Below, one piece after another: positions 2-11,924 of a stretch of 13,212 nucleotides of DNA. Position numbers and translations under genes: made by a program. Source of the DNA: an uncultured Ignavibacteria bacterium (GTDB taxonomy: Bacteria; Bacteroidota; Ignavibacteria; Ignavibacteriales; Melioribacteraceae). The notes beneath the pieces are model-generated. The model was not told the DNA's origin. It did no database searches and saw only the letters and a list, made by a program, of their open reading frames with translations. The DNA lies in contig CALGLM010000269.1 of NCBI GenBank assembly GCA_937930275.1, positions 1 to 13,212 on the forward strand. Direction: 5' to 3'. Every line of letters starts with the position of its first letter. Position 1 is the stretch's first letter.

Positions 2-442
2 CAAAAAGTAGAAGAACTATCACAGCTTATTTGTCATCTTACACGAAGATGTAATTTGAAAGAAGATTTTTTTGCGGCTTCGTTTAATTTATCCCCGACT
101 GAAGTACGCTTACTTAGGTTATTTAACTACTCGGTAACTTATACCGTAAAAGAATTAAAAGATCGACTTCAATTAACCTCTGGCAGAATTACTCACATTA
201 TAAGTTCTTTAGAAAAAAAGAAGTTAATAATAAGAACTCAAGATAACGAGGATAAAAGGAATGTTTCGGTTTCTCTTTTACCTAAAGCAGAACCATTAAT
301 AAATAACCTGCAAAAAAGCTATCAAGATTTGCATCAAACCATCTTACAAAATATTCCCGAATCTGAAATTGATAAAATGACCGAAGCAATTACTTTACTT
401 GTTGGTGTTTTTGATAAATGGGTGGATGAAAAAAACTTTTAG
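2..442 (+). CDS. MarR-family transcriptional regulator, 5' end cut by the window edge
   Basis: A winged-helix regulator of the MarR type, probably controlling the redox/sulfur operon that follows after 37 bases. The reading frame is open to the left edge. The TTG at 56 could be taken as a start, but the frame continues upstream as QKVEELSQLICHLTRRCN, which fits the first MarR helix, so TTG 56 is internal. Visible are the helix-turn-helix (YTVKELKDRL then LTSGRITHIISSLEKKKLI, about nt 140-235) and the wing, with DKRNVSVSLLPKAE matching the family pattern D-x-R-x(3)-V-x-L-T. The 146 visible codons are already near full MarR length (140-150), so only a few residues are missing. Two cysteines (nt 32-34 and 50-52) lie in the N-terminal helix; they could be redox or sulfur sensors, but this is inference. 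The ligand and operator are not visible. Confidence 0.88.
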   Translation, partial: QKVEELSQLICHLTRRCNLKEDFFAASFNLSPTEVRLLRLFNYSVTYTVKELKDRLQLTSGRITHIISSLEKKKLIIRTQDNEDKRNVSVSLLPKAEPLINNLQKSYQDLHQTILQNIPESEIDKMTEAITLLVGVFDKWVDEKNF

Positions 443-479
443 ACTATAAAACAATTTTATAAACAAAAAGAAGTATGAT

Positions 480-2060
480 ATGAAAAAAATAGTAATAGTA
501 CTCTCGGTAATAAGTCTGGTTCTTATTGTACTATACGGTTCGTTAGTACAAAAAGATATTGAACCTACAAAACTGATGGAACTTAAGCAAAAATACTCGG
601 CAAAACCGACAAAAAAAGTTGACCATTCGGCTTTTGCCTCTTTAAATCAAAAATTCACTTCTCCGCATCAAATAACACAACAATGTATTATTTGTCACAA
701 TAAAACGGACAAAGAGGTAATGAATTCCAACCACTGGAATTGGGAAAGACCTGAATACATAAAAGGACGCGGAATTGTTTACTTAGGTAAAAAAAATGCA
801 ATTAACAACTTTTGTATCGGAACGCAAGGAAATGAAGAAAGCTGCGGAAAATGTCATATCGGATACGGTTTGGATCAAGCCGGAAAAAGTTACACTGATA
901 GCACAAACGTTGACTGCTTAGTATGTCATGATAATACCGAAACTTACACAAAAGCAAATGAAATGGGCGGTGCGCCGGTAATGACTTTAGACTTTAATAA
1001 TATTGCAAAAAATGTAGGACGTCCTAAAAGAAGTAATTGCGGTGTTTGCCATTTTTACGGCGGCGGCGGTAACAACGTAAAACACGGTGATCTTGAAATG
1101 GCAATGTTTGAAACCACAAAAGACGTTGATGTTCATATGGGTACAGATGGCATGAATATGGATTGTGTTGATTGCCATACTACCCATAATCACGTTATTG
1201 ACGGAAAACTTTATTCCTTATCTTCAATGAATAGAAATAGGGTTACTTGCGAACAATGTCATACCGAAACTCCGCATGAAGACGATATATTAAACGAACA
1301 TACCGTAAAAGTAGCTTGCCAATCTTGTCATATCCCCGAATATGCAAAAGTTAATTCAACTAAAATGTATTGGGATTGGTCAACTGCTGGTAAATTAAGA
1401 AACGGTGAACCTTACGAAGAAGACGATAGCTTAGGTAATCATACATATTTATCTATTAAAGGTTCGTTTAAATGGGCAAGAAACGTTAAACCAGATTACA
1501 TTTGGTTTAACGGAACAGCTTCGCATTATTTAGAAGGAGATGTTATAGAGGATACAACTAAAGCATTAGTTCTAAATCCGCTTTACGGTTCATACAGCGA
1601 TCAAAATTCTAAAATTACTCCGGTAAAAATTCACGTTGCCAACCAACCATTTGATCCGGTTAACAGGATGTTAATTCAACCTAAATTATATAGCCATTAT
1701 AAAGGAGACGGAGCTTTTTGGAAAGACTTTAACTGGCTTGAAGCAGCAAAAAAAGGAATGAATGACGTAGGTTTACCTTTTAGCGGCAAAATTTCATTTA
1801 TTACAACAAAAATGTATTGGCCAATTAACCACATGGTTTCCACTAAAGATAAAACCGTAGGATGCAATGAATGCCACGTTAGAGAAAACGGACGTTTAGC
1901 CGGTCTTAACGATTTTTATATGCCGGGTAGAAATTATTCTTCTATTGTTGAAACTATGGGTAAATTATTGATTATCTTTTCAATAATTGGTGTATTGCTA
2001 CACGGAACAATAAGATTTATTTCTTACCGTAAACTAAACAAAAAAGGCGGTGTAAAATGA
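480..2060 (+). CDS. Membrane-anchored octaheme c-type cytochrome, tetrathionate reductase (OTR) family
   Basis: A multiheme cytochrome of 526 residues with exactly eight CXXCH haem sites, with first cysteines at residues 69, 122, 146, 187, 229, 257, 280 and 462. The first seven are packed into about 215 residues and the eighth is far downstream, followed by a C-terminal membrane helix. This arrangement fits the octaheme tetrathionate reductase family. The Shewanella OTR enzyme reduces tetrathionate and, in vitro, nitrite and hydroxylamine; the physiological substrate here is unknown. An N-terminal hydrophobic segment (3-23) lacks a clear signal-peptidase site and probably stays as an anchor. 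A second helix (about 494-513) ends in a basic tail, so the haem domain should face the periplasm. The start has an AGAAG ribosome site six bases upstream. The gene overlaps the cytochrome b gene by four bases (ATGA), implying co-translation and a functional pair. The OTR active-site haem is lysine-ligated; I cannot assign that lysine here. Confidence 0.87.
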   Translation: MKKIVIVLSVISLVLIVLYGSLVQKDIEPTKLMELKQKYSAKPTKKVDHSAFASLNQKFTSPHQITQQCIICHNKTDKEVMNSNHWNWERPEYIKGRGIVYLGKKNAINNFCIGTQGNEESCGKCHIGYGLDQAGKSYTDSTNVDCLVCHDNTETYTKANEMGGAPVMTLDFNNIAKNVGRPKRSNCGVCHFYGGGGNNVKHGDLEMAMFETTKDVDVHMGTDGMNMDCVDCHTTHNHVIDGKLYSLSSMNRNRVTCEQCHTETPHEDDILNEHTVKVACQSCHIPEYAKVNSTKMYWDWSTAGKLRNGEPYEEDDSLGNHTYLSIKGSFKWARNVKPDYIWFNGTASHYLEGDVIEDTTKALVLNPLYGSYSDQNSKITPVKIHVANQPFDPVNRMLIQPKLYSHYKGDGAFWKDFNWLEAAKKGMNDVGLPFSGKISFITTKMYWPINHMVSTKDKTVGCNECHVRENGRLAGLNDFYMPGRNYSSIVETMGKLLIIFSIIGVLLHGTIRFISYRKLNKKGGVK

Positions 2061-2716
2061 AAAAAACAAAAATTTTAGTTTATAAATCATTTGAAAGATT
2101 TTGGCATTGGCTTCAAGCTATCCTTATTTTCTTTTTAGCTTTTACAGGATTTGAAATTCACGGTGCTTATACATTTTTTGGCTTTAGAGATGCGGTTCGT
2201 TATCACAATGTTGCTGCATATATGCTTATTGCATTAATTATTTTTGCAATATTTTGGCACTTTACTACAGGAGAATGGAAACAATATGTGCCGACATTAA
2301 AAAATATTAAAGCACAATTAGACTATTATTTGTTTGGTATTTTTAAAAATGCTCCCCACCCTACTAAAAAAACAGTACTCAGTAAATTAAATCCATTGCA
2401 AAAATTAACATATTTCGGATTAAAAATATTGGTTATACCTGTTGTTGTTACAAGCGGATTATTGTATATGCTTTATCGTTATCCGCAAAAACATGGAATT
2501 GAAGGCTTAAATGTAGAATCATTAGAAGTTATAGCAATTGTTCATACTATCGGAGCATTCTTATTGTTAGCTTTTATTATCGTTCACTTATATTTAATAA
2601 CAACCGGCGAAACTGTAACTTCAAACCTAAAGGCGATGTTAACCGGTTATGAAGAACTTGAAGACGAGGACGAAGAAGATGAACACTCGGAAAATAAACT
2701 TGAAGGAAAGAGGTAA
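2057..2716 (+). CDS. Four-helix di-haem cytochrome b, formate dehydrogenase/hydrogenase gamma-subunit type
   Basis: An integral membrane protein of 219 residues with four hydrophobic helices at about 18-34, 50-69, 118-140 and 158-182. Histidines in or next to the helices (H17 in RFWHWLQ, H50, H68 in FWHF, H163 and H177 in VHLYL) are good haem b ligands and match the pattern of the cytochrome b561-like family that includes FdnI and HydC. Such subunits carry electrons between the quinone pool and a partner on the outer face of the membrane. The ATGA overlap with the octaheme cytochrome gene makes that protein the obvious partner. The C-terminus is very acidic (ELEDEDEEDEHSE) and probably cytoplasmic. 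The direction of electron flow (quinol oxidation to reduce a sulfur compound, or the reverse) cannot be read from the sequence. The family call is firm; the exact subfamily is not. Confidence 0.86.
   Translation: MKKTKILVYKSFERFWHWLQAILIFFLAFTGFEIHGAYTFFGFRDAVRYHNVAAYMLIALIIFAIFWHFTTGEWKQYVPTLKNIKAQLDYYLFGIFKNAPHPTKKTVLSKLNPLQKLTYFGLKILVIPVVVTSGLLYMLYRYPQKHGIEGLNVESLEVIAIVHTIGAFLLLAFIIVHLYLITTGETVTSNLKAMLTGYEELEDEDEEDEHSENKLEGKR
2706..2713 (+). promoter_or_regulatory. Ribosome binding site fixing the start of the first YeeE gene
   Basis: GAAAGAGG lies seven bases before the ATG at 2721. An earlier in-frame ATG at 2649 would add 24 very basic residues that overlap the acidic end of the cytochrome b gene and look nothing like a YeeE N-terminus. 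The start at 2721 is therefore preferred. Confidence 0.75.
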
Positions 2717-2720
2717 TAAA

Positions 2721-3236
2721 ATGGAACAGAAACAATATATGAACCCTTATTTAGCGGGATTTTTATTAGGGTTATTGCTAATAGCTACTATTTATATAAC
2801 CGGAAGAGGATTAGGGGCAAGCGGTGCATTTAAAAGTTTTACTGTTGCAACGGTTGAAACTGTTACTCCGGGACATGCTGAAAATACAAAATTTTATGAT
2901 GAATATTCTAAAGAACACGCCGGAAACCCGCTTATGAACTGGTTGGTTTTTGAAGTTGTAGGTGTTATAATAGGTGCATTTTTATCAGGATTAATTTCAA
3001 ACAGACTTGATCTAAAACTTGAATTTGGTCCTCATTCAACAGCAAAAATTAGAATTGCAGGTGCATTAATCGGCGGTTTATTATGGGGTATAGGTTCCCA
3101 ATTAGGCAGAGGTTGTACCAGCGGAGCTGCTTTAAGCGGAATGGCCGTTCTTTCTACAGGCGGAATTATAACAATGATGGCTATTTTTGCAGGTGCTTAT
3201 ATGTTTGCTTACTTTTTTAGAAAATTTTGGATTTAA
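2721..3236 (+). CDS. YeeE/YedE-family membrane protein (thiosulfate-transporter type), first half
   Basis: A membrane protein of 171 residues with helices near 8-26, 72-92, 112-127 and 143-165. It contains a glycine-rich motif twice: GRGLGASG at 28-35 and GRGCTSG at 129-135, an internal duplication typical of YeeE/YedE proteins. Cys132 in the second copy is the kind of conserved cysteine that, in the characterised thiosulfate importer TsuA/YeeE, contacts the substrate. At about half the size of YeeE (about 350 residues) it must work with a second half, and the next gene supplies one 12 bases later. The likely role is transmembrane movement of thiosulfate or another small sulfur compound for or from the octaheme cytochrome system. 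The substrate and direction are inferred from the family and from gene order only. Confidence 0.85.
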   Translation: MEQKQYMNPYLAGFLLGLLLIATIYITGRGLGASGAFKSFTVATVETVTPGHAENTKFYDEYSKEHAGNPLMNWLVFEVVGVIIGAFLSGLISNRLDLKLEFGPHSTAKIRIAGALIGGLLWGIGSQLGRGCTSGAALSGMAVLSTGGIITMMAIFAGAYMFAYFFRKFWI

Positions 3237-3248
3237 TAGGAGTTTAAT

Positions 3249-4439
3249 ATGGGACCATTAGTGCCAGATATAATTAGTAATGATTTAAATTTTATTGTTG
3301 CGCTTATTATAGGTATTTTATTCGGTGCAATTTTAGAACAAGCCGGTTTTTCTACTTCCAAAAAATTAGTAGGTTTGTTTTACGGCTATGATTTTACGGT
3401 TTTAAGAGTATTTTTTACTGCCGGTGTCGTAGCAATGATAGGTGTTTTAGCACTTGTTCATTTCGGCTATTTGGATATGAACTTAGTATATATTAATCCT
3501 ACTTTCCTTTGGTCTGCCATTGTGGGCGGCTTAATAATGGGATTAGGATTTGTAGTTGGAGGATTTTGTCCGGGTACAAGTGTTTGTGCAGCTTCAATCG
3601 GCAAAATTGATGCTATGATTTTTGTTGCCGGATCCGCAATAGGCGTTTTTATTTTTGCCGAAGCTTACCCAATTTTTGAACCTTTATATAAAGCAGCAAA
3701 TTTAGGAAGTCCCCAAATTTTTGAAACTCTCGGAATGTCTCAATCTCTTTTTGCATTTTTATTAGCAGTAGTAGCACTTACGGCATTTTGGGCAGTTTCA
3801 ATAATTGAAAATAAAGTAAATAAAATTGAAGAACCAAGCATTAAATTTACGCCTTATTATATAAGTTTAGCAGCAATCGGATTATTAATATCTATTTCTG
3901 CATTTGTTTTTACAAATAAAGAAGATGACATGATAAGCAAAGTTCAAGATTCTTCATTTGTTAATTCGTTTACAATTAATTATATTGATAGTGATGAATT
4001 AGCTTTCAGATTAATTGATAAAGACACAAAAATTCAAATCTTGGATTTTAGGACAGGTAAAGAATTTGATAAATTTAAATTACCCGCCTCTACATTATTA
4101 ACCGTGAATAATCTTTTTGAAAAAGAGCCGAATCAAATTTTAAGAATTAAGGGAATTGAAAGGATTGTAGTTGCTGAAAACGAAAAAGAAGCTGTTAAAA
4201 ATGCCGTCATTTTAACCGAATTAGGATACAAAAACATAAGAGTGTTAAAAGGCGGATTAGAACAATTTAATAAGGATATTTTAAGTTTCAAAAAAACAGA
4301 CGAGCCCAAAAATAAATTAGAAGCTGATAAAATAAGATTTAGAACTTTAGCTGCTTCTGTTCTACCTAAACTTATTGAAGAAAATAAAAAGTCCGGTCCT
4401 GTTGAAAAGAAACAAAAGCGTTTAATAGGCGGTTGTTAA
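3249..4439 (+). CDS. YeeE/YedE-family membrane protein fused to a degenerate rhodanese-like domain
   Basis: A protein of 396 residues. The N-terminal part (1-222) has about six helices (13-33, 52-73, 86-104, 121-139, 166-184, 203-222) and two YeeE-like repeats: LEQAGFSTSKKLVGLFYG at 29-46, and GFCPGTSVCAASIGK at 105-119 with Cys107 and Cys113. It should pair with the preceding half-size YeeE protein. Residues about 245-345 form a rhodanese-like fold: ILDFRTGKEFDKFKLPAS matches the D-x-R...F...H-I-P-x-A element, and ELGYKNIRVLKGGLEQF matches the end of the domain. The catalytic-loop cysteine is absent: IVVAENEKEA puts Glu310 where Cys would be, so sulfurtransferase activity is unlikely by the normal route. 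The protein ends in a lysine-rich tail closing with Gly-Gly-Cys. The start has AGGAG six bases upstream. It is the last gene of the operon, followed by a strong terminator. Confidence 0.85.
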   Translation: MGPLVPDIISNDLNFIVALIIGILFGAILEQAGFSTSKKLVGLFYGYDFTVLRVFFTAGVVAMIGVLALVHFGYLDMNLVYINPTFLWSAIVGGLIMGLGFVVGGFCPGTSVCAASIGKIDAMIFVAGSAIGVFIFAEAYPIFEPLYKAANLGSPQIFETLGMSQSLFAFLLAVVALTAFWAVSIIENKVNKIEEPSIKFTPYYISLAAIGLLISISAFVFTNKEDDMISKVQDSSFVNSFTINYIDSDELAFRLIDKDTKIQILDFRTGKEFDKFKLPASTLLTVNNLFEKEPNQILRIKGIERIVVAENEKEAVKNAVILTELGYKNIRVLKGGLEQFNKDILSFKKTDEPKNKLEADKIRFRTLAASVLPKLIEENKKSGPVEKKQKRLIGGC

Positions 4440-4449
4440 TAGAAATTAA

Positions 4450-4490
4450 AAAAACTCCTATACTATCATAACAAACGTATAGGAGTTTTT
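4450..4490. terminator. Strong bidirectional intrinsic terminator ending the octaheme/YeeE operon
   Basis: A perfect 14-base inverted repeat, AAAAACTCCTATAC at 4450-4463 and its complement at 4477-4490, encloses a 13-base loop. The arm ends in T's on the + strand and, by symmetry, on the - strand. It begins 10 bases after the stop of the YeeE-rhodanese gene and separates two convergent operons. Confidence 0.88.
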
Positions 4491-4566
4491 ATTTTTAAAA
4501 ATCTTAAAAATTTGAAGTTCTTCTTTTTTCCTGCCTTAAATAATAAAATATAAAAAAAAATTAAAA

Positions 4567-7078: not shown

Positions 7079-7435
7079 TCAGCCTTTTTTACTTTTTACG
7101 TATTTAATTATTTCAGCTTTTTCTAATGTAATTAACCCGCCGCAATTACTCTCTTCAAAAAGTTTATCAACTAAAGGAATAAAAGATTCTATTTTTGAAA
7201 CTTCGTCAACAATTTCAATAATTACGGGTAAATCAGCCGAAATAGTTAATAATTTTGAAGAATGAATAGTTGTGCTATTTCCTCCAAAACCCATTACTCC
7301 TTTAAATACCGTTGCACCGGCTAAACCAAATTTTTTAGCTTCCACAACTATCTTTTCGTATAAACTGACTGAATTTAATTTATCACTTTCACCAATAAAA
7401 ATACGTAATAGTTTAGCTTCCCCTTCAATTTTCAT
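7079..7435 (-). CDS. DUF190 protein, small cytosolic PII-like partner of CrcB
   Basis: A small soluble protein of 118 residues of the DUF190 family, recognised from KIEGEAKLLRIFIGESDK at the start and GLAGATVFKGVMGFGGNS in the middle, both hallmark stretches. The family has a PII-like (ferredoxin-like) fold and is often encoded beside crcB, suggesting a role in sensing or tuning ion transport; the function is not established. An ATG seven codons upstream (7456) is in frame, but the ATG at 7435 is preferred: it has an AGAGG site five bases before it, begins with the family's usual first residues, and sits one base after the crcB stop (TGATATG), giving tight translational coupling. Confidence 0.85.
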   Translation of the reverse strand: MKIEGEAKLLRIFIGESDKLNSVSLYEKIVVEAKKFGLAGATVFKGVMGFGGNSTTIHSSKLLTISADLPVIIEIVDEVSKIESFIPLVDKLFEESNCGGLITLEKAEIIKYVKSKKG

Positions 7436-7436
7436 A

Positions 7437-7805
7437 TCAACCTCTAAAGATAACATACGCTAAATATACACCTAAAATCGTTAAAATAATTGAAAGAAGC
7501 AAATTTAACCCACCTAATAAGAACTCTGAATTTTTGAATAATTGAAGTGTTTCATAAGAAAACGTAGAAAAAGTTGTGAATCCTCCGCATACCCCCACTG
7601 TTAAAAATAATTTCATATCGCTATTAATGATTTGTTTATCTGCCAAACCAAAGATTATCAGACCAATCAAAAAACTCCCTATTACATTAACAACTAAAGT
7701 GCCCAAAGGGAAAAAAGGGAAAAATTCGTTAATTTTTGACGAGAATAATAATCTAAACACTCCGCCTAAACCCGCTCCCAAAAATACAAGAATATACTTA
7801 CTCAT
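7437..7805 (-). CDS. crcB: Fluoride channel of the Fluc/CrcB family
   Basis: A four-helix membrane protein of 122 residues that exports fluoride as a dual-topology dimer. Family motifs are all present: GAGLGGVFR near the start, GTLVVNVIGSFLIG (about 35-48, with the channel asparagine), and GVCGGFTTFSTFSYE (about 71-85), which holds the phenylalanine/threonine/serine track and the central Na+ site region. The length is normal for the family. It is the first gene of a - strand run with the DUF190 gene directly behind it. No fluoride riboswitch was recognised upstream (7806-7990), which is nearly all A and T. Confidence 0.94.
   Translation of the reverse strand: MSKYILVFLGAGLGGVFRLLFSSKINEFFPFFPLGTLVVNVIGSFLIGLIIFGLADKQIINSDMKLFLTVGVCGGFTTFSTFSYETLQLFKNSEFLLGGLNLLLSIILTILGVYLAYVIFRG
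7441..7445 (-). promoter_or_regulatory. Ribosome binding site fixing the DUF190 start
   Basis: AGAGG on the - strand lies five bases before the ATG at 7435 and inside the last codons of crcB. It supports the shorter DUF190 protein. Confidence 0.6.
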
Positions 7806-7992: not shown

Positions 7993-10110
7993 TTATTTAA
8001 TTGCAAAATTTAGTGAAAACACAAAATTACGTTCCAATCCCGGTTCAATGTAAATTGGCGCTTTTGTTTTGCTATCTAAATCCGGATTAATGAATGCACT
8101 TGCAACATATTTTTTATTAGTCAAATTATTCACAGAAATAAAACAACCTACATCCAAATGATCTTTAACTAAATTAAAATCTTTTATACCTAAATTAGCA
8201 TTAATTATTCCGTAATTAGGAACTTCGATTGTATTTGCGTCATCAACAAAATACTTACCCATTCCGTTAAAAGTTACGCTAACAAGTGCATTTTTAAAGA
8301 ATTCGGGTGAATAAGATAATGTAGCTGAATAAAACATATCCGGTACACCAGCAACTTTATTATCTTTGTAATTTGCATAAGTTCCGTACATCGGATCAAT
8401 AATATATTCATCATATTTATTAGAGGAGTAAGTTAAGGTACCCGAAAAATTAACACCGTACTTTGTTGTCAAACTTGTACTTAATTCAGCTCCCATTCTG
8501 TGTGTTTTACCTGCCGTTATATAAAATTTTCCGCTATTATACGGAATAATATCATTCTTGATATTAATATAATATAATGCGATATCATAAGTAACAGATT
8601 GAATAGTATTTTCTTTTCCGATAAAATAAATATGTTTTGTCCCCAATTCATATGTAGTTGATACTATCGGGTCTAACAAAGGATTCAATAAATCAATTCC
8701 TGTAATTGCCGGATCTGTTTCGTTACCTGCCGGTACTTCAACACCGCCGCCTAAATTAAAATATACACTATGCGATGGATTAAATAGATAAGTAACTCCT
8801 GCTTTAGGTGTAAAATGCTCAAAAGATTTTTTCTGTAATCCTAATTCCGGATCAATAAAACTTTCACTATAATAAGTAACATTATCATAACGACCGCCAA
8901 CTAAGGCACTAAATTTCTCATTAATTTTTAACTCATTTTGAAAAAATGCACCGAAGGTATTTGCACCTTCTCTTTTATTATCCTTTAAAGTTTCGCCTCT
9001 TCCTTGCGTAGCAGAAAGGTTATAAAATAGTATTGCGCCGTCTTGATATGCTTCATCTAAACCGGCACTAAAACTATTATGCAAATTTTCGTTAAAGTTA
9101 TATGTGTTGCGAAACACTATATTTCCGCCAAAATGATAACGAGTAAAATCTCTAAAAGTATTTCTTTCCGAACGTTGTAAGTATTTAGGATTAACAAACA
9201 GCATAGAAGAAATTTCGTTGTTTGCATTTAACTTGTGTTCAAATGTAACACCCATTCTTCCTAATCTATTATACCTGCGTTCATCTCGTTTTAAGTAAGT
9301 AGAATTTGCCAAAGTTTGATCATTGTTGTATTCTTCTAATGTTAAAGGTCCCGGTATTCTAAATAAATTACTTGTTCCTACTGCAAAAAAGCCCAATTTT
9401 GTAACATTACTTAAATCAGAAATAACGCCCAAATTTACAACCGTTCTTTTTCCGCTACTATGAACTCTCCAACCGTCAAAATTACTTTGTGAATAAGAGC
9501 CAAATATTTTTCCGTTAGAAAATTCAGATCCGGCTTGAACATTAATTTTTTTAAACCCAAAACTTCCCGTAAATCCTTTTATATTAAAAAAGTAATTATC
9601 AAATTCCGGAATTGTCGAAATATTCACAATACCGCCGGCTGCATTTCCCCAAAGAGAAGAAGCGTTTGATCTAATAATTTCAATATTTTCTGCATTGGTA
9701 ATATCTATATTATCAAATGATGTTCTTCCGTCCGGTTCTGTCTCCGGAATTCCGTCCATCATTACTCTAATTCCTCTGGAAGTTCCGCTGTTAGATCTAT
9801 CGCCTGCCCCTCTTGCACCAAACCCTCTAATTACTATTCGCACATCCTGTGTACCCGCACGTGATTGTGTTAACACACCCGGAACACTGTTTAGTACTTC
9901 ATCTAAGCCATAACCTTTTGTTAAGGTTAATTGATCTTTGGGTAAAATGGTAACCGCATAAGGTATTTCTATAGTGTTTTCGGCATATCTTGTAGCTGTT
10001 ACCGTAATAGGTGCCATTTGATATTTCATAGTATCTGTTTTTGAAACGGTTTGTCCAAACGTAAGTCCGCCTATAAAAATAAGCAAAACTATGTACTTTA
10101 TTTTTTGCAT
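7993..10110 (-). CDS. TonB-dependent outer membrane receptor
   Basis: A 705-residue outer membrane transporter. A signal peptide (1-19, ending TFG before Q) is followed by a TonB-box-like stretch (APITVTATR, 33-41), a plug domain (about 44-166) with RIVIRGFGARGAG, a GIRVMMDGIPETEPDGRTSF element and IIRSNASSLWGNAAGGIVNI, and then a 22-strand-type barrel rich in alternating aromatic residues. The C-terminal strand reads RNFVFSLNFAIK. The length is normal for siderophore or metal-complex receptors of the FecA/OprC kind. There is no SusD partner and no carboxypeptidase-like N-terminal extension, so a glycan receptor is unlikely. The substrate is not readable; iron or copper chelates are the default guess. 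A weak GGCGG ribosome site lies six bases before the ATG. The upstream membrane-protein gene (95-base gap) is probably co-transcribed. Confidence 0.93.
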   Translation of the reverse strand: MQKIKYIVLLIFIGGLTFGQTVSKTDTMKYQMAPITVTATRYAENTIEIPYAVTILPKDQLTLTKGYGLDEVLNSVPGVLTQSRAGTQDVRIVIRGFGARGAGDRSNSGTSRGIRVMMDGIPETEPDGRTSFDNIDITNAENIEIIRSNASSLWGNAAGGIVNISTIPEFDNYFFNIKGFTGSFGFKKINVQAGSEFSNGKIFGSYSQSNFDGWRVHSSGKRTVVNLGVISDLSNVTKLGFFAVGTSNLFRIPGPLTLEEYNNDQTLANSTYLKRDERRYNRLGRMGVTFEHKLNANNEISSMLFVNPKYLQRSERNTFRDFTRYHFGGNIVFRNTYNFNENLHNSFSAGLDEAYQDGAILFYNLSATQGRGETLKDNKREGANTFGAFFQNELKINEKFSALVGGRYDNVTYYSESFIDPELGLQKKSFEHFTPKAGVTYLFNPSHSVYFNLGGGVEVPAGNETDPAITGIDLLNPLLDPIVSTTYELGTKHIYFIGKENTIQSVTYDIALYYINIKNDIIPYNSGKFYITAGKTHRMGAELSTSLTTKYGVNFSGTLTYSSNKYDEYIIDPMYGTYANYKDNKVAGVPDMFYSATLSYSPEFFKNALVSVTFNGMGKYFVDDANTIEVPNYGIINANLGIKDFNLVKDHLDVGCFISVNNLTNKKYVASAFINPDLDSKTKAPIYIEPGLERNFVFSLNFAIK

Positions 10111-10205
10111 AAAAATTCCGCCATTTTGTTTTAAAATGAAAAGTGAATATTTTTAAAATAAAACCGATTTTATTATTCGATTTTTAAAACTATTAAAGAA
10201 TAGAA

Positions 10206-10829
10206 TTAAGCAAAATTTTTAGGCGGGGGTGCCGGAATATCCAAAACGTTTTCAAGAGGATAAGCAAATATATGGGGATATTCTTTGCTTATGTCTTGAA
10301 TATTCGGCAATTTTAACATTTCATCAATATATCCGTCAAAATGTAACTTTTCTACAATGTTTTTTAAGGGTTGGCTTTTTGAATTATTACCTTTTTCTGC
10401 AAAATAATGCTCTAAAAACGATTTTTCCAGCATATCCTCATTTTTATCGCTAATGCATAAAAAATAAATAGTATCACCAACCTGTTTTTGTTTAATAATA
10501 TCAAACAGTTTACCAAAGTATTTAACCTCATGTTTTTTAATGAACATAAAATCATCACTTTTTCCGTAATAAACCGATTTATGTATTTTTAGTATATTAA
10601 GGTACTGTTTATTAACTATACTCAATGAATCAAAGGAATTAATAAAATCAAAATTTTTTATAGCTCTATTAGTCGCATATTGTCTAATCTTTCGTACGCC
10701 GGCTTCCTTAAACTGAATATGTAAACCCGAATATATTATAACATATCCGAAAGAATAAAATAATACGCAGATACCTAAAATTGCAATAAAAAAATATTTA
10801 ACTAATGAATGTTTAATGGGTAAACTCAT
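10206..10829 (-). CDS. Uncharacterised single-helix membrane protein upstream of a TonB receptor
   Basis: A 207-residue protein with one strong N-terminal membrane helix (about 11-35), a mixed polar domain and a proline-rich end (IPAPPPKNFA). The middle (KYFGKLFDIIKQKQVGDTIYFLCISDKNE, in pieces) resembles, from memory, a family of unnamed Bacteroidota proteins that sit next to TonB-dependent receptors. Those proteins share one N-terminal helix, a lysine-rich segment followed by DT-hydrophobic-C, and a terminal PPP motif. I do not know a function. The most likely place is anchored in the inner membrane with the domain in the periplasm. Gene order suggests a part in uptake or handling of the receptor's substrate. 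The gene starts at an ATG just after an AT-rich divergent promoter region. Confidence 0.7.
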   Translation of the reverse strand: MSLPIKHSLVKYFFIAILGICVLFYSFGYVIIYSGLHIQFKEAGVRKIRQYATNRAIKNFDFINSFDSLSIVNKQYLNILKIHKSVYYGKSDDFMFIKKHEVKYFGKLFDIIKQKQVGDTIYFLCISDKNEDMLEKSFLEHYFAEKGNNSKSQPLKNIVEKLHFDGYIDEMLKLPNIQDISKEYPHIFAYPLENVLDIPAPPPKNFA

Positions 10830-11367: not shown

Positions 11368-11646
11368 ATGTCAAAAGTAAAGAAAGTTGTAAAAACTACA
11401 AAAGCAGCAAAACCTTCCCCATTTGAAAACTATTGGACTAAAAACAATATAGTTTTAACCATTGTATCGGTAGTATTGTTAACATTTGGATATATTTTAA
11501 TGTCAAAAGGCCCATGGGATAACCCGGTTTCATTAACTTATTCTCCTATTGTTTTAATAATTGCGTATGTTATAGTAATTCCTATCGCAATAATGTTTTT
11601 TGGCAAAAAGAAAGAATCGTCAAACAACCCAGATTCAGCTGAGTAA
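11368..11646 (+). CDS. Small two-helix membrane protein, DUF3098-like
   Basis: A 92-residue protein with a basic alanine/lysine N-terminus (MSKVKKVVKTTKAAKPS), two membrane helices (about 28-46 and 60-78) and a lysine-rich end. The layout NYWTKNNIVLTIVSVVLL, then FGYILMSKG, then a short polar loop, then SPIVLIIAYVIVIPIAI resembles the DUF3098 family of Bacteroidota (helix, G-x-x-L-M, loop, S/R-x-x-L-A/S-P-I-V-L helix). DUF3098 proteins have no known biochemical role; in Bacteroidetes they are often near cell-division or cell-wall genes. The stop overlaps the start of the EutN-like gene by one base (TAATG), so the two are translationally coupled. The ribosome site is weak. The family call is from memory and moderate. 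Confidence 0.72.
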   Translation: MSKVKKVVKTTKAAKPSPFENYWTKNNIVLTIVSVVLLTFGYILMSKGPWDNPVSLTYSPIVLIIAYVIVIPIAIMFFGKKKESSNNPDSAE

Positions 11647-11924
11647 TGTTTTTAGCAAAGATTAAAGGGAATATTGTTTCAACCCAAAAGGACGAATATT
11701 TAGTCGGTCAAAAATTATTATTAGTACATCAAATAGATTTAAACGGAAATTTTGTAGGTACTAAAGATTGGATTGCATTGGATTTAATTGATAGCGGAAT
11801 CGGTGATACGGTGTTGGTCTGTCAAGAAGGAGATGCGGTTCAACAAATTTTAGGTCATAAGAAATCACCGGCTAATACAATGATTATTGCAAATATTGAT
11901 GATATTGATATTCCGGAAAATTAA
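11646..11924 (+). CDS. EutN/CcmL-type microcompartment vertex (BMC-P) homologue, orphan
   Basis: A 92-residue protein matching the EutN/CcmL/PduN pentamer family, which caps the corners of bacterial microcompartments. The N-terminal part is near canonical: FLAKIKGNIVSTQKDEYL then VGQKLLLVHQID (family pattern A-K-V-x-G-x-V-V-S-T-x-K-x(4)-G-x-K-L-L-L-V). IALDLIDSGIGDTVLV matches the A-V-D-x-V-G-A-G-x-G-E-x-V-L-V strand. The next part differs: where family members usually have G-S-S-A-R there is EGDAVQQIL, and the usual P-V-D-A-A-I-V-G-I-V-D is here PANTMIIANIDD. No BMC-H or BMC-T shell protein or encapsulated enzyme is in the window. The gene is coupled to the membrane-protein gene (one-base overlap) and is 10 bases ahead of dprA, so it may act outside a microcompartment or serve a locus elsewhere. 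Confidence 0.85.
   Translation: MFLAKIKGNIVSTQKDEYLVGQKLLLVHQIDLNGNFVGTKDWIALDLIDSGIGDTVLVCQEGDAVQQILGHKKSPANTMIIANIDDIDIPEN

Follow-up and report, generated by a model that had tools for sequence, protein, structure and literature searches.

The stretch analysed here (the window: 13,212 nucleotides of contig CALGLM010000269.1, assembly GCA_937930275.1, from an uncultured Ignavibacteria bacterium) begins with a five-gene operon in which an OTR-family octaheme cytochrome c and a b561-type cytochrome b are encoded together with both halves of a split YeeE-type sulfur transporter. We found that the second transporter half is fused to a rhodanese domain that has lost its catalytic cysteine and has kept a single cysteine at the end of a flexible tail, that the gene content and order are conserved and spread over five phylum samples, and that the same transporter and tailed rhodanese also accompany PhsA- and NrfD-like proteins in place of OTR. 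We propose that the operon encodes a membrane-bound respiratory sulfur module in which a tethered cysteine arm would serve interchangeable redox heads, an explanation to which, taken in full, we assign a probability of roughly 0.55. The broader claim, of a module for sulfur redox chemistry and transport whose tail thiol is functional, appears quite probable; the membrane side, the electron route, the loading of the arm, the direction and the substrate are features that we infer.

Layout and spread of the operon

All five open reading frames (ORFs) lie on the forward strand and gave hidden Markov model (HMM) matches that agree with the assignments made in an earlier sequence-only reading of this DNA: a MarR-family regulator (2..442; PF01047, 41.6 bits), open at the 5' edge of the window with its start codon outside it; the OTR-family octaheme cytochrome (480..2060); the b561-type cytochrome b, its likely quinone partner (2057..2716; PF01292, 102.8 bits); the PmpA-like half of YeeE (2721..3236; Sulf_transp PF04143, 82.3 bits); and the PmpB-like half fused to a transmembrane (TM)-anchored rhodanese domain and flexible tail (3249..4439; PF04143, 56.3 bits). 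The one-strand arrangement with spacings of 37, -4, 4 and 12 bases given in that reading was recovered when the PmpA-like gene was started at 2721, the conserved protein start in relatives (the mechanical ORF begins at 2649). The strong terminator that it noted was likewise borne out in the form of an intrinsic terminator at 4450..4497 on the forward strand, with a 14-pair stem, a loop of 13 and a T run; the stretch 4436-4500 folds with -18.4 kcal/mol (z = -7.7 against 200 shuffles). A simple hairpin scan did not return this terminator because it was limited to loops of 3-8. The five ORFs are real; the earlier gene list had overlooked that the last protein has a rhodanese domain and a C-terminal GGC and that PmpA precedes PmpB.

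When GTDB contigs were scanned with the OTR protein, 274 relatives were obtained, and the best 80 were retained for comparison of loci. The order OTR-CytB-YeeE_A-YeeE_B on one strand was kept in 78 of these 80, and the two exceptions (L040 and L056) stop at contig edges; intergenic gaps are mainly overlaps or tens of bases, with 1.4 kb between cytochrome b and YeeE_A in L037. As these best loci are close relatives, we searched five phylum samples with genomes drawn evenly, the phyla being picked since each has at least one genome with the set. Proteins over the TIGR04315 cut-off were detected in 41/296, 16/199, 3/149, 20/193 and 9/151 genomes, and OTR was linked to YeeE in 56 of the 95 loci (26/44, 4/18, 2/3, 16/21 and 8/9), a tally that includes 6 seed genomes and is a lower bound, given that 7 of the 39 YeeE-less loci have less than 2.5 kb of downstream DNA. 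The seed loci are labelled Ignavibacteriales, Acidobacteriota, Elusimicrobiales, Deltaproteobacteria and Armatimonadetes/Chthonomonadia. Removal of duplicate genomes left 158 distinct OTR loci, comprising 118 that are YeeE-linked, 20 with cytochrome b only and 20 that are solitary. The cytochrome b match of L224 is present inside an over-long ORF.

A tree of 62 representative OTR proteins, in which four loci at contig ends (L056, L202, L227 and L236) were left out of the clade count, resolved the YeeE-linked loci into two clades of 34 rows (support 100/99) and 5 rows (100/98), with two state changes in the best tree. Solitary OTRs, cytochrome-b-only OTRs and the Shewanella OTR lie between or outside these clades, and one common YeeE-linked clade was not rejected by the approximately unbiased (AU) test (p-AU 0.096). 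In the second clade L216, which was scanned, has a multiheme c protein fused to b561, and L218, L219 and L223 have matches similar in size (about 755 residues) to this fusion; L214 has a separate seven-heme protein and b561, and in L136 an eight-heme protein, whose b561 match stays under the cut-off, is positioned after the transporter. The second clade thus employs other electron partners; what changes is the partner of OTR, and what stays is the YeeE pair with its tail. The concern, voiced in the sequence-only reading itself, that these families might rarely occur together beyond close relatives is answered by YeeE-linked OTR turning up in each of the five phylum samples and falling into two clades in the OTR tree.

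The split transporter, the inactive rhodanese and the tail cysteine

The two transporter proteins match positions 175-309 and 4-195 of PF04143 and belong to the split PmpA/PmpB type, for which PmpA has been assigned to the C-terminal and PmpB to the N-terminal half of YeeE (PMC11582611). The PmpA-like protein has a single cysteine, Cys132 in the motif GRGCTSG, and the PmpB-like half has Cys107, in GGFCPGT, and Cys113; Cys132 and Cys107 are taken as the Cys293 and Cys91 equivalents by motif and not by structure. Both proteins score far below the cut-off of the TsuA/YeeE family NF041049 (23.4 and 22.9 bits against 645). Uptake of zero-valent sulfur has been reported for split YeeE pairs, with both conserved cysteines required (PMC10812762), and for full-length YeeE it has been proposed that thiosulfate is relayed past the cysteines and reaches YeeD at the cytoplasmic face (PMC11073785). 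The window pair resembles PmpA/PmpB and YedE1E2 in being two proteins that correspond to the C- and N-terminal YeeE halves, each with a conserved cysteine. It differs in its linkage to OTR, in the extra TM segment, rhodanese domain and GGC tail of its PmpB half, and in having no persulfide dioxygenase gene in its operon.

The rhodanese fold of the last protein spans residues 258-342 (PF00581, 33.0 bits), and its catalytic position is occupied by Ala309. The protein ends in KRLIGGC, the codons of Gly394-Gly395-Cys396 lying at 4428..4436 on the forward strand, directly before the stop codon at 4437-4439. A tail cysteine is found within the last three residues in 111 of the 118 distinct YeeE-linked loci, the other seven being contig ends or split or altered genes, and just one of these 111 has a cysteine at the rhodanese catalytic position. 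G394, G395 and C396 are invariant in a 46-row alignment of complete copies, and among the 120 database relatives listed (at least 61% identity) 119 end in GGC and none has the catalytic cysteine. No part of the structure model is less ordered than the tail, with predicted local distance difference test (pLDDT) values below 50 at 386-388 and 390-396 and values of 78-94 in the rhodanese blocks, and the tail is typically basic, the last 22 residues having a median net charge of +5 (range -1 to +10) in 148 tails of the fused and separate kinds. A plain sequence search of the PDB with this protein returned nothing at 0.001, and the Foldseek and VIA-align matches shown were rhodaneses or proteins aligned to the rhodanese domain, which makes them uninformative for the membrane part.

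SoxY is a periplasmic protein that bears a single cysteine on a glycine-containing C-terminal arm. The window protein has an arm of this kind, probably on the same side of the membrane; unlike that of SoxY, it sits on a dead rhodanese fused to a transporter, and no SoxY model was encountered among the eight NCBIfam matches of the protein (E up to 0.1). The window arm may carry sulfur as that of SoxY does.

We noted that the mean number of Lys+Arg residues per loop of the PmpB half is 0 at the N-terminus, 2.0 at 32-49, 0.1 at 72-86, 1.0 at 105-119, 1.3 at 148-164 and 4.1 at 186-204, a pattern that fits an N-terminus outside and a loop before the last TM segment inside. Furthermore, in L073 and most of L274-L291 a similar rhodanese occurs as a separate protein with an N-terminal hydrophobic anchor (judged by eye), directly following a YeeE_B whose sequence stops at this same loop. 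Given this positive-inside pattern and the anchored stand-alone versions, the rhodanese domain and its tail are predicted to be periplasmic, which is the side of OTR.

The tail cysteine also bears on a reading in which YeeE would import only trace sulfur as a signal or nutrient, with the tail cysteine being structural or regulatory, and in which OTR and cytochrome b would constitute a tetrathionate respiration kept in the same regulon. SoxT transporters have been tied to signal transduction (PMC11582611), and the MarR regulator has two conserved cysteines, Cys11 and Cys17 of its visible part, seen in 23 and 24 of 24 aligned rows (which include the window and three duplicate genomes) and possibly forming a thiol or persulfide sensor. 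Against such a role, MarR lies directly upstream in just 17 of the 80 loci (a lower bound, as some contigs begin just before OTR), the tail cysteine is near-universal, and the rhodanese has lost its own cysteine and kept that of the tail; we consider this purely assimilatory or sensing function improbable. On the same count of 17/80, MarR was rejected as a fixed part of the system. A palindrome, TATTTTA-N3-5-TAAAATA, recurs upstream of MarR in L001, L002, L007, L030, L041 and L129 and is a possible MarR operator, in DNA that is AT-rich, with no control for the recurrence and with the window ending short of the site.

Exchange of the redox head and the active site of OTR

When the separate tailed rhodanese of L073 was searched in 247 genomes, matches were obtained in 177, the majority being weak and likely to represent ordinary rhodaneses. 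All of the 30 best hits returned as loci have YeeE_A and YeeE_B adjoining and the tail cysteine; 11 are OTR-linked fusions and 19 do not lie at OTR loci. Wider regions were taken for 18 of these 19 (all except G025:C17) and for two further hits, and each of the resulting 20 has both YeeE halves and a tailed rhodanese ending in GGC, EGC, DGC or MGC, which in L292 is fused to YeeE_B. In 15 of the 20 a Tat-type protein of 729-761 residues and a protein of 310-323 residues lie upstream, and a protein of the size of an iron-sulfur (Fe-S) protein is visible in most of these; they are called molybdenum-enzyme-like and NrfD-like on size, order and N-terminal sequence. L284 and L073, which were scanned with HMMs, have a molybdopterin oxidoreductase, an Fe-S protein and NrfD, the best NCBIfam match of the two oxidoreductases being PhsA (503 and 461 bits, below the cut-off of 694). 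No such molybdenum enzyme is in view in L289-L291. L073 carries both an OTR set and a PhsA-type set, and the 21 separate-type rhodaneses all have the tail cysteine, as the last residue in 20 of them. In L073, relatives of PhsABC/PsrABC stand in for OTR next to the YeeE pair with its tailed rhodanese, and gene size and order indicate the same for L274, L276-L288 and L292; the window enzyme, in contrast, is a c-type cytochrome.

Several regulators and cytochromes were seen near the PhsA-type clusters. An 11-CxxCH protein lies just upstream in L278, L285 and L292, and a MerR regulator stands at the cluster of L284, with look-alikes in L278, L281-L283 and L292. Near the PhsA-type set of L278 there is also a MarR protein of the window MarR's family (10066-10554; 162 bits) in which, by eye, C-x5-C is kept, hinting at a shared regulator.

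The window OTR is a full-length member of its family (TIGR04315, 557.5 bits against a cut-off of 375, model positions 1-440; PF11783; PDB 1sp3, E 1.8e-118), with eight CxxCH motifs at 69, 122, 146, 187, 229, 257, 280 and 462. It shares with the OTR of Shewanella oneidensis (SO; 1sp3) the eight motifs and the equivalents of Lys153 and Cys64. SO Lys153, which we take to be the lysine ligand of the catalytic heme, corresponds to Lys201 in the window and is a lysine in all 158 distinct loci; SO Cys64 corresponds to Cys112 and is a cysteine in 117 of 118 YeeE-linked loci (one gap), 20/20 cytochrome-b-only and 17/20 solitary loci. Unlike the Shewanella protein, the window OTR has a hydrophobic segment near either end (by eye), a b561 of its own and a YeeE-rhodanese transporter, and SO Asp150, which presumably lies beside the catalytic heme, is replaced by Asn198, a departure from the Shewanella-type active site. 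This position holds N in 103, Q in 10, D in 4 and M in 1 of the 118 YeeE-linked loci, the second clade having Gln in 10 of its 14, and Asp in 15 and Asn in 4 of the 20 cytochrome-b-only OTRs. The replacement suggests a different chemistry or substrate in the YeeE-linked OTRs, an effect that ancestry alone could also explain. The electron partner differs as well, STC being reported as that of the Shewanella OTR (PMC4484225).

In the window cytochrome b seven histidines are conserved in 80-81 of 81 aligned rows, and the best NCBIfam match, the PhsC-like NF011582, stays below its cut-off (110.2 against 204 bits). Clustering of OTR with cytochrome b561 has been described for the Ignavibacteriae isolate Ch128a (PMC7509429). 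The locus of this isolate (L065) has YeeE genes downstream of OTR, which the relevant passages of PMC7509429 do not mention, and the words "sulfur transport" occur nowhere in that paper's text. Selenocysteine forms have been recorded for TIGR04315 and for the GUxSG motif of YeeE (PMC13188914), which hints that thiol chemistry matters in both.

These observations allow us to weigh the view that the enzyme reduces or detoxifies nitrite or hydroxylamine and has only its operon in common with a sulfur-scavenging transporter. The Shewanella OTR reduces nitrite, hydroxylamine and tetrathionate (PMC4484225), and 40 of the 158 distinct loci have no YeeE nearby (in at least 9 cases a contig end cuts the locus), so the OTR family as such is independent of the module. 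A mere neighbourhood is at odds with the ordered linkage being kept in two OTR clades with different electron partners, with the same transporter and tailed rhodanese accompanying PhsA-type enzymes, and with the residue at the Asp150 position, which is Asn or Gln in 113 of the 118 YeeE-linked OTRs and Asn in just 4 of the 20 cytochrome-b-only ones, a difference for which ancestry could suffice. We regard this as the least probable of the alternatives.

Proposed mechanism and direction of sulfur transfer

In the mechanism that we favour, the b561-type cytochrome b would take electrons from menaquinol and hand them to the octaheme OTR in the periplasm, and the PmpA and PmpB halves would together form one YeeE-type sulfur channel. 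The inactive periplasmic rhodanese on the PmpB half would have the role of holding the basic flexible tail, whose single terminal cysteine may act as a swinging arm like that of SoxY, bearing a persulfide, S-thiosulfonate or S-sulfonate. This arm could shuttle the sulfur group between the active site of OTR, where the heme has a lysine ligand and Cys64 is conserved, and the cysteines that form the relay in the channel. Working reductively, OTR would cleave the S-S bonds of polythionate, thiosulfate or sulfane sulfur that the arm either presents or receives, after which the sulfur would enter the cell through the channel; where MarR is present, its two conserved cysteines probably sense the sulfur species. 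The sequence-only reading had linked quinol electrons, passing through cytochrome b to OTR, with a movement of sulfur across the membrane by YeeE, for which thiosulfate, the example named there as transported product, is no more than a candidate; the central idea fits our findings and is incomplete, the dead rhodanese with its tail cysteine and the OTR/PhsA exchange, which are the main mechanistic clues, having been overlooked. Still more tentatively than the direction discussed below, the system might represent a new class, respiratory sulfur group translocation, in which reduction or oxidation of S-S bonds and transmembrane movement of sulfur would take place on one covalent carrier, built from a split YeeE channel and a periplasmic cysteine arm tethered on a dead rhodanese, with interchangeable redox heads.

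We tentatively prefer the reductive direction. With the potential of menaquinone taken into account, electron transfer from menaquinol to tetrathionate is downhill, and the step from thiosulfate to tetrathionate should not reduce menaquinone, being too positive. The tetrathionate potential used in this argument is +198 mV (PMC8528874). The same source reports otr transcripts up 36-fold at day 8 with tetrathionate in a marine Acidobacteriota microcosm, for an otr that may or may not be of the YeeE-linked kind; the earlier statement that OTR lacks a clear physiological role needs qualifying in this light.

An oxidative version would have OTR couple sulfide, sulfite or thiosulfate to the tail cysteine in the manner of SoxAX, with electrons reaching the quinone pool by way of cytochrome b and sulfane sulfur being imported through the transporter for use in the cytoplasm. 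The tail cysteine resembles the GGCGG motif of SoxY (as in the family name SoxY_true_GGCGG), and b561-type subunits are able to run towards quinone. In lucinid symbionts, which are sulfur oxidisers, otr lies beside the SoxY and SoxZ genes (PMC11237559), and this is a second, published link of OTR to a cysteine-arm carrier; SoxT and YedE1E2, for their part, import sulfur (PMC11582611, PMC10812762). To this version are opposed both the potential just given and the gene content of 61 YeeE-linked genomes, in which SoxY and dsrA over the cut-off are each found in 1/61 and TusA in 24/61, leaving 37/61 without TusA over the cut-off and no known downstream route evident (sHdr being unsearched). The usual partners are therefore mostly not found, and the known type of YeeE partner (TusA/YeeD) often is not; classical Sox or Dsr oxidation is unlikely in most of these genomes. 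As the 61 genomes are of unknown completeness and have no matched control group, the counts describe rather than test; TusA matches occur in 11 of 14 named control genomes, which are not comparable organisms. On balance we consider the oxidative version unlikely.

Several points weigh against the respiratory sulfur module with its tethered arm. The loading of the arm, the substrate and the direction are unproven, and with TusA present in 24 of the 61 genomes a cytoplasmic acceptor is possible. The charge argument is not clean, the stretch after the last TM segment (223-240) having 3.0 Lys+Arg and a net charge of -0.5; the transporter part of the structure model is of medium confidence only, and the YeeE structure 6leo was matched weakly in a profile search (E 0.068, residues 19-108). 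Tail endings vary in the second clade (GGCG, GGGCG, SGSCG and GGLCS), and tail residues within each clade are linked by ancestry. The separate rhodaneses were found using a tailed query, 3 of the 21 retain the catalytic cysteine, and a second rhodanese of L073 (1391-1921) lacks the tail cysteine. To these can be added, besides the nitrite and hydroxylamine activities and the YeeE-less loci considered above, that the contact between STC and OTR has been interpreted as a route to nitrite (PMC4484225) and that the otr of Caldithrix abyssi lies near a hydrogenase (PMC5317091).

Among known systems, YeeE/YeeD (TsuA/TsuB) likewise combines a YeeE-type channel with a thiol partner, which there is a separate protein. 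It differs in that YeeD binds on the cytoplasmic side (PMC11073785), whereas the thiol arm of the window is predicted to be periplasmic, and in that TusA-family genes over the cut-off accompany the YeeE-linked OTR in just the minority of genomes counted above. No description of an OTR-YeeE link, or of a cysteine-tailed rhodanese on YeeE, was found among the papers listed in searches of the open-access PMC literature, supplements and subscription papers lying outside the search; as far as this search reached, the system is an undescribed, testable variant of known sulfur systems. OTR has reportedly had a crystal structure and in vitro activities for two decades, with its natural substrate unsettled. 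The conserved partners seen here (a sulfur channel, a C-terminal thiol that does not vary and a PhsA-type enzyme that can take the place of OTR) suggest a sulfur role for OTR. Organisms mostly without SoxY or dsrA matches may use a tethered carrier to handle sulfur intermediates, and this would have consequences for the sulfur cycle of the sediments and groundwaters that are the apparent source of many of the metagenome-assembled genomes.

Some minor observations concern other OTR loci and the rest of the window. In L203-L207, from the Acidobacteriota sample, OTR domains lie within proteins of about 1,090-1,100 residues, with no YeeE or cytochrome b match in the fetched stretch. L111-L120 have OTR and cytochrome b only and come from small genomes (1.6-2.6 Mb), five of which gave no match in the tailed-rhodanese search. 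The OTR of G026:C42 is in fragments, with three in-frame TGA codons, for which decay, assembly error or recoding are possible explanations. In the window itself, 11646-11924 is a lone gene similar to those of bacterial microcompartment vertex proteins (CcmL 63 bits, below its cut-off of 125; EutN 38 bits), situated between a small ORF and dprA. On the reverse strand at 7079-7805, DUF190 and CrcB genes overlap, and this pair presumably functions in fluoride export.

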